DNA of 41,039 nucleotides from Candidatus Gastranaerophilales bacterium. GTDB taxonomy: Bacteria > Cyanobacteriota > Vampirovibrionia > Gastranaerophilales > Gastranaerophilaceae. Positions within the stretch are counted from its first letter, which is position 1, and the number at the start of each line of letters is the position of its first letter. Both the position numbers and the translations under genes were made by a program. The stretch spans positions 1-41,039 of the forward strand of contig CAJOOA010000035.1 in assembly GCA_905236055.1 (NCBI GenBank), read 5' to 3'. The notes beneath the pieces are model-generated. The model was given only the letters and a program-made list of their open reading frames with translations. It did no database searches and had not been told where the DNA came from. This document shows, piece by piece, positions 16,918 through 37,822 of the stretch.

Positions 16918-17048
16918 ATTTTATCTTTGATTTAAAAAACTGGTAAAATCCATTTATTTTTTTAAAAAATAAATTTTAACATTACTAGCAAATTATTTTT
17001 TTTTGTGTTTTAAGATAAGTGAAATTCGAATTTTCAAAGGAGAAACGG

Positions 17049-24821: not shown

Positions 24822-24906
24822 ATTATTTATGCGAATTATAACAGACCGTAGCAAAAAAAAATTTTACAGTTTTTAGTTATATTATTAAACTTGCATCGGG
24901 AATAAT

Positions 24907-36508: not shown

Positions 36509-36826
36509 TTAGCTTAATTTTTCGTAATGTAAATTTCTTATAGCTTCATTTATAACCCAGCCATCAGCACGAAAATGTGCATAGTTATTTTTGCCGACAT
36601 ATCTCACCGCCTCCGGGGAACCTGACTTTAGCCACTTGTCTAAAATTTTTAAAGCCGTTTTTAATATTTTGCAGCCATATTTTTTTAGAAGTGTCTCATA
36701 TTGATTAGAAGTCAGATTCACAATCGTAACATTTGGAATTTTAATGTATATTTGAGAGTCTTGCCTCGGGCGACCGCCTTTATTTCCATTATTTTTATAA
36801 AATGATTTCTTACTTTTGAATGTCAT
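36509..36826 (-). CDS. Small basic protein, phage/plasmid-like
   Basis: 105 residues. A very basic start (MTFKSKKSFYKNN...KGGRPRQD) is followed by TSNQYETLLKKYGCKILKTALKILDKWLKSGS and HFRADGWVINEAI. This pattern (x-L-T-x-x-x-Y-x-x-L-x-x-K-Y-G, then a helix, then a W-V-I-x-x-A end) recalls the C-terminal segment of phage and plasmid replication-initiation proteins of gut bacteria; recalled, not searched. The start overlaps the broken gene upstream by 17 nt, so the two form one minus-strand unit under the operator at 37141-37178. Confidence 0.65.
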   Translation of the reverse strand: MTFKSKKSFYKNNGNKGGRPRQDSQIYIKIPNVTIVNLTSNQYETLLKKYGCKILKTALKILDKWLKSGSPEAVRYVGKNNYAHFRADGWVINEAIRNLHYEKLS

Positions 36827-37039
36827 TTCTTTTTATATTTGGTGCTCCTCCTCTTCTGATAATTTCGATAACTGTCACTTTCATTTTGCATTTATAGTTA
36901 CGTTTAGAAAAAAAAATACCTCGTACAATGAGCATTTAGAGCAATCACATCCTATCAAGTAACAATCAAATGCCTGTTGTGTCCATTCTTTACTTAATGT
37001 TTCAGAACATGATACATTATATCGGTAACTCTCTGACAA
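36810..37039 (-). pseudogene. Split small Cys-rich phage-like gene, frameshifted at a run of nine T
   Basis: Start TTG at 37037-37039 with AGGGG 5 nt before. Frame 1 reads MSESYRYNVSCSE..., then KEWTQQAFDCY, IGCDCSKCSLYEV, and stops at 36881-36883 after 52 residues. At the nine-T run (36908-36916 on the plus strand, nine A) a +1 shift reads on as SKRNYKCKMK, VTVIEIIRRGGAPN to a stop at 36810-36812, 76 residues in total. That continuation is protein-like, while the frame-1 tail is not. Either a real frameshift, a sequencing error in the homopolymer, or slippage that yields both products. WTQQAxxCYxxGCxCxxC resembles small genes of gut phages and mobile elements. Confidence 0.65.
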
Positions 37040-37090
37040 AATATCCCCTTGCTAAACCTTACAAAAAAGCAATACTTGTAAAAATATTAT

Positions 37091-37119
37091 TTGACATAAT
37101 CTTATTTATATGCTTAAAT
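37091..37119 (+). promoter_or_regulatory. Candidate promoter of the S24 repressor gene
   Basis: TTGACA (37091-37096), 17-bp spacer, TTAAAT (37114-37119). An inverted repeat TTATATG (37106-37112) / CATATAA (37122-37128) lies over the -10. The leader would be about 80 nt. Confidence 0.5.
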
Positions 37120-37140
37120 GTCATATAATGTTTTTACATT

Positions 37141-37178
37141 ATGTATTATATTGTAAGATAATATAATACATTTGTCAA
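37141..37178 (-). promoter_or_regulatory. Palindromic operator overlapping a divergent promoter
   Basis: 37141-37171 is a perfect inverted repeat: arm ATGTATTATATT, 7-bp centre, exact reverse-complement arm. On the minus strand TTGACA (37173-37178), 17-bp spacer, TACAAT (37150-37155) lies across it, reading toward the small phage-like genes. A second short palindrome TACAT-T-ATGTA (37135-37145) adjoins. This is the layout of a phage-type repressor operator. Confidence 0.7.
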
Positions 37179-37204
37179 GCGATAACTTCCAAAATCGGTG
37201 AAAA

Positions 37205-37822
37205 ATGAAATTAAATGAACTTATGCAGCTTATTTCCGGCAAAACCGGGAAATACGTTAATCAATCACTTCTAGCAGAGGGCTTGGGGATTACCCGCCAG
37301 ACAGTCAGCAACCGTATAAAGAATGACAGCCAAGTTACAGTTAGCGAACTTAGACGAATTGAAGATTTTTTTGGAATTACGCTTTTTAATGAAACAAGAG
37401 GAGACGAACAAGATGTCGTTTACATAGACTATTATTCGGACGTTTTTGCAAGTTGTGGAAGCGGAACAATTGTTTTTTCCGAGGAAAAAATTAAAATTCC
37501 TCTTTCCTCAACACTTATAAAAGGATTTTCAAAACAAAAAAACTATTCAATTATAAATGCAACCGGAAATAGCATGACACCCACTATCGATGACGGCGAT
37601 AAACTTCTTGTTGAACATTGGAACGGAGAACAAATACAAGATAATTGTGTTTATGTCTTTTGTTTTAATCAGGAATTTTTTATAAAACGGCTGTCCAAAA
37701 ACCTTGATGAAATAATAATAAAATCAGATAATCCGGATTATCGCACACGAACAATAAACGGAAGTACTGTGGATGAACTGATACTAGTGGGCAAGGTTAT
37801 CGGAATTATTAAATCGATTTAA
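37205..37822 (+). CDS. S24-family self-cleaving repressor (CI/LexA-like)
   Basis: 205 residues. N-terminal helix-turn-helix (about 18-55, SLLAEGLGITRQTVSNRI) and C-terminal S24 peptidase domain with the catalytic Ser at GNSMTP (S123) and Lys at FFIKRL (K161). A cleavage site Cys-Gly (C84-G85, FASCGSG) lies between the domains; Cys-Gly is used by some phage repressors. It would repress the minus-strand genes and cleave itself when RecA is activated. No Shine-Dalgarno is evident (ATCGGTGAAAA before the ATG). Its stop overlaps the lipM-like gene by 4 nt. Confidence 0.88.
   Translation: MKLNELMQLISGKTGKYVNQSLLAEGLGITRQTVSNRIKNDSQVTVSELRRIEDFFGITLFNETRGDEQDVVYIDYYSDVFASCGSGTIVFSEEKIKIPLSSTLIKGFSKQKNYSIINATGNSMTPTIDDGDKLLVEHWNGEQIQDNCVYVFCFNQEFFIKRLSKNLDEIIIKSDNPDYRTRTINGSTVDELILVGKVIGIIKSI

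Follow-up and report, generated by a model that had tools for sequence, protein, structure and literature searches.

In the 41,039-nt stretch of Candidatus Gastranaerophilales bacterium DNA analyzed here (the window), a small operon gene is divided between two reading frames at a run of nine T, which we attribute, as the probable explanation, to a recent and lineage-specific frameshift by replication slippage in a gene that is dispensable. Both halves of the gene, each in its own frame, match one orthologous protein family across its whole length, as represented by 54 intact orthologues from the same genus, and the split is therefore an observation beyond chance. The window is contig 35 of a draft genome of 1.76 Mb in 119 contigs, which is 97% complete and 3% contaminated.

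Structure of the split gene and comparison with its orthologues

The coding (minus) strand carries exactly nine T at positions 36908-36916, which read as nine A flanked by G and T on the plus strand. The 5' part of the gene (36881-37039, minus strand) is a TTG-started frame of 52 residues running from 37039 to 36881, whose product, MSESYR...CSLYEVFFFLNVTINAK, contains the family's first three invariant cysteines in the orthologue alignment and terminates soon after the nine T. The 3' part (36810-36908, minus strand) continues in the other frame as SKRNYKCKMKVTVIEIIRRGGAPN..., is protein-like, and carries the fourth invariant cysteine together with the last predicted helix. Its stop codon lies at 36810-36812 and the next gene starts at 36826, so that the shifted-frame continuation overlaps that gene by 17 nt. 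The run, the TTG-started frame, the continuation and the overlap are all present as a preliminary description of this DNA had them, and its coordinates and its figure of 76 residues for the long form are correct. The locus therefore has an A/T run of at least nine nucleotides beyond which coding sequence goes on in the shifted frame, as do slippage genes of the mxiE, dnaX and tssM kind.

A search of 65 genomes of the genus yielded 54 orthologues that are open through the site in a single frame, which bears out the earlier proposal that the gene is split at the run and that its long form is ancestral. Counted from the homologous start, the intact orthologues have 66-80 codons, and none of the 54 ends at residue 52, where the preliminary description had raised the possibility that homologues might stop. 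Their longest homopolymers measure 4-7 nt, with 3-7 T at the site itself; no homopolymer longer than 7 was found among them, and the slippery run is thus not conserved. The closest relative, G193 (73% DNA identity over the region), reads YKVMFSRRNYKC at the site where the window reads YEV-FF-SKRNYKC, and in the alignment between them the run at 36908-36916 is two nucleotides longer in the window, the surplus being T. The spacing from the conserved phenylalanine to Cys48 is identical in 53 of the 54 orthologues; a single added T returns the gene to frame but inserts an extra phenylalanine into this stretch of fixed spacing. The suggestion that one added T restores the protein accordingly holds in so far as the frame opens, but this is neither the only restoring change nor one that fits the relatives, which point to a surplus of two nucleotides. 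Measured against the intact orthologues, the frame is disrupted as in a frameshift pseudogene. The window copy also lacks the ancestral start codon, an ATG in 51 of the 54 orthologues; its start would be the TTG two codons upstream.

Loss of the gene is not confined to the window. In G213 (locus L094), a deletion of ~31 nt shifts the reading frame very close to where it is broken in the window, and in G208 (L100) a short remnant is all that is left. The deletions are independent of each other and affect this gene in two further species of the genus. The gene is absent between the repressor and the downstream GGRP gene in six further genomes (G239, G215, G217, G024, G201 and G191), the loci of G194 and G197 being left unclassed in this count. 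Matches with internal stops in G034 and G109 were considered as broken copies and rejected, as these are natural gene ends. Two more copies are thus damaged, and six genomes cleanly lack the gene while the remainder of the operon is intact; the repeated loss typical of a frameshift pseudogene is evident, and the gene is dispensable in the genus. Taken together with the missing ancestral ATG, these losses favour ordinary, repeated gene loss.

The part of the window copy that follows the run shows no decay. Ten of its 12 near-invariant positions are kept, the remaining two changes are conservative, and the frame used contains no stop. Relative to G193, the two parts have similar pN values (0.177 upstream of the run, 0.214 downstream of it), synonymous sites being saturated in this comparison. 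It follows that the lesion is of very recent date, far younger than the divergence from G193, that full-length protein is still made, or that the run length given by the assembly is wrong.

The four-cysteine family and its operon

The family to which the gene belongs is marked by four invariant cysteines, C24, C31, C34 and C48 (alignment A2), and is predicted with moderate confidence (mean pLDDT 71) to fold into three helices, for which a fold search and a solved-structure search returned no structural neighbour. It is probably a small metal-binding domain, which perhaps contacts protein or DNA. In a protein search, 190 of the 191 genomes from the window's bacterial family gave matches, and a profile search detected the protein in 131 of the 292 phylum genomes, every one of them in the window's order; neither Pfam nor NCBIfam holds a relative. 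This is thus an undescribed protein family that is nearly universal in the bacterial family, restricted to the order and absent from both collections. An intact relative also occurs on a different contig of the window's own genome (L003, G000:C107:44-205).

The gene had initially been called phage-like, a label that the searches contradict: phage records and viral contigs gave no homologue, the family is found only in the window's bacterial order, and PHROGs returned a single match with an E value of 0.052. Across phage records, viral contigs, PHROGs, Pfam and NCBIfam, a phage origin is unsupported, and the sole phage resemblance nearby is that of the adjacent S24 repressor to phage CI.

The next gene of the operon (36509-36826, minus strand), which shares the 17-nt overlap, encodes a 105-aa 'GGRP' protein of unknown function. 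The operon has a sigma-70-like promoter, TTGACA-17-TACAAT (11/12 matches), at 37150-37178 on the minus strand, and diverges from a CI/LexA-like repressor with HTH_3 and Peptidase_S24 domains (37205-37822, plus strand). Overlapping the promoter is a probable operator, a perfect 12-bp inverted repeat with 7 nt between its arms (37141-37171), whose exact sequence occurs just once in the genome and which is likely to be the operator for the divergent S24 repressor. A weaker relative of the repeat, with 3 mismatches, was seen at G000:C36:413-441 (L175).

The order of divergent S24 repressor, small gene and same-strand GGRP gene is conserved in 55/55 orthologous loci (54 genomes, one counted twice), and the rest of the operon is intact in the window; the layout, taken earlier as that of an intact operon, is indeed the conserved one. 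In the window the module has ribosomal protein L9 and a ligase-like gene as neighbours, in G193 L9 and another housekeeping gene, and in G188 other genes, all of them ordinary chromosomal genes. Judged by these flanks, it is a cassette of the chromosome that carries a phage-type repressor, and no prophage. The cassette occupies different chromosomal places across species (36509-37822 in the window, L171 in G188, L173 in G193). Among the loci inspected, L9 adjoins it only in the window and G193, and no integrase was seen nearby.

Long A/T runs and the origin of the frameshift

A/T runs of at least nine nucleotides are scarce in this genome, in which we counted 39 distinct ones, whereas simple Markov models that had been trained on the window predict about 400-490. 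Such a depletion, approximately ten-fold in an organism of 35% GC, suggests selection against slippery runs, and long runs would be avoided through slipping of either transcription or replication. Three of them lie in the window (16996-17004, 24853-24861 and 36908-36916). About ten long genes cross runs of this length in frame, and no second gene was found split at any of the 39 runs; together these observations give no sign of systematic homopolymer error. Four candidates for further split genes (L133, L154, L163 and L165) were rejected as ordinary gene ends or non-coding sequence.

By the explanation we consider probable, the ancestor would have encoded a four-cysteine protein of 66-80 residues as the first of two operon genes, divergent from the S24 repressor. 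Substitutions in this lineage would have lengthened the T stretch at the Phe and Ser codons, and replication slippage would then have left the run of nine, beyond which the last third of the protein is out of frame. It is chiefly the 52-residue protein that would be made, and this protein, without the fourth of the invariant cysteines and without the final predicted helix, is probably non-functional. A small quantity of full-length protein may still come about through RNA polymerase adding a U in the run.

It is also conceivable, if somewhat unlikely, that the frameshift is real and the gene still works, RNA polymerase slipping on the nine T so that a minority of transcripts return to frame. 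A large proportion of genomes show selection against slippage from a length of nine A/T (PMC1088944), and the depletion seen here is what would be expected if such runs were slippery; this depletion could, however, equally come from replication slippage. In E. coli and Buchnera, transcriptional slippage mostly inserts a single nucleotide, and such insertions become more frequent in longer runs (PMC5574713). One added U does open the frame here, but the +1 product then has its extra phenylalanine exactly where spacing is fixed. The conservation of the part after the run would fit a working gene; against this, runs of this length are missing from all relatives, the genus can do without the gene, and no RNA structure of the kind that stimulates ribosomal frameshifting was found beyond chance near the site (z-score +0.83). 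The depletion thus makes a leaky rescue plausible, not a conserved two-product design. Such a design, a programmed switch by which short and long proteins are made on purpose, is very improbable: it has in its favour that each frame is open and that the long form resembles the family, but the site and the short product are conserved in 0/54 orthologues and the short form lacks an invariant cysteine. The earlier idea that both a 52- and a 76-residue product may be made, if read as a designed feature, consequently finds no counterpart in any relative.

That the true run is in frame, and the nine T an artefact of sequencing or assembly, or else a minority variant of the population, we regard as unlikely. 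The draft state of the genome and the lack of decay after the run would be consistent with it, as would the outcome of pattern scans of viral and genome contigs, which found neither a second genome of the species nor another strain with a different run length. However, the in-frame crossings and the lack of any other split at the 39 long runs argue against such an error, as does the ancestral ATG that is also missing from the window copy.

Relation to known slippage genes and significance

One close parallel is found in Blochmannia and Buchnera, where genes carry frameshifts in poly(A) or poly(T) tracts that are possibly leaky via transcriptional slippage (PMC3017870); there, as here, a single indel in a long A/T run interrupts a gene that is otherwise conserved. 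Each Blochmannia genome, however, has 114-153 polyA tracts of at least nine within genes, and some of the split genes there encode key replication proteins, such as dnaX and dnaG (PMC3017870), whereas in the present genome such runs are rare and the split gene is dispensable. In Shigella flexneri mxiE, transcriptional slippage at a U run, shown by experiment, gives a functional long product (PMC1088944), and in Citrobacter rodentium tssM1, eleven A cause about 20% frameshifting and both products were shown to be necessary (PMC4256274). The gene described here shares with mxiE two overlapping frames joined by one nucleotide added in a U run, and with tssM1 an interruption just past a homopolymer in a gene that is intact in relatives and looks broken at first. 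Unlike in mxiE, the alignment implies a surplus of two nucleotides, and none of the relatives has the run; unlike in tssM1, the run consists of nine T; and in contrast to both, any slippage at the present run is putative.

When one draft genome shows a gene split at nine T, caution is called for; in the present case the explanation comes from relatives, which show that the gene can be intact and free of the run, that it has been lost repeatedly, and that the lesion differs in size from the one guessed without them. There is a slim chance that the nine T act as a slippery site peculiar to this lineage, or as an on/off switch at the level of replication, which would lower the amount of full-length protein while the gene is kept, in a four-cysteine family restricted to the order and under the control of an S24 repressor. 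Both by-products of the analysis, the undescribed order-wide cysteine protein family and the compact repressor-operon module, could be studied for their own sake.
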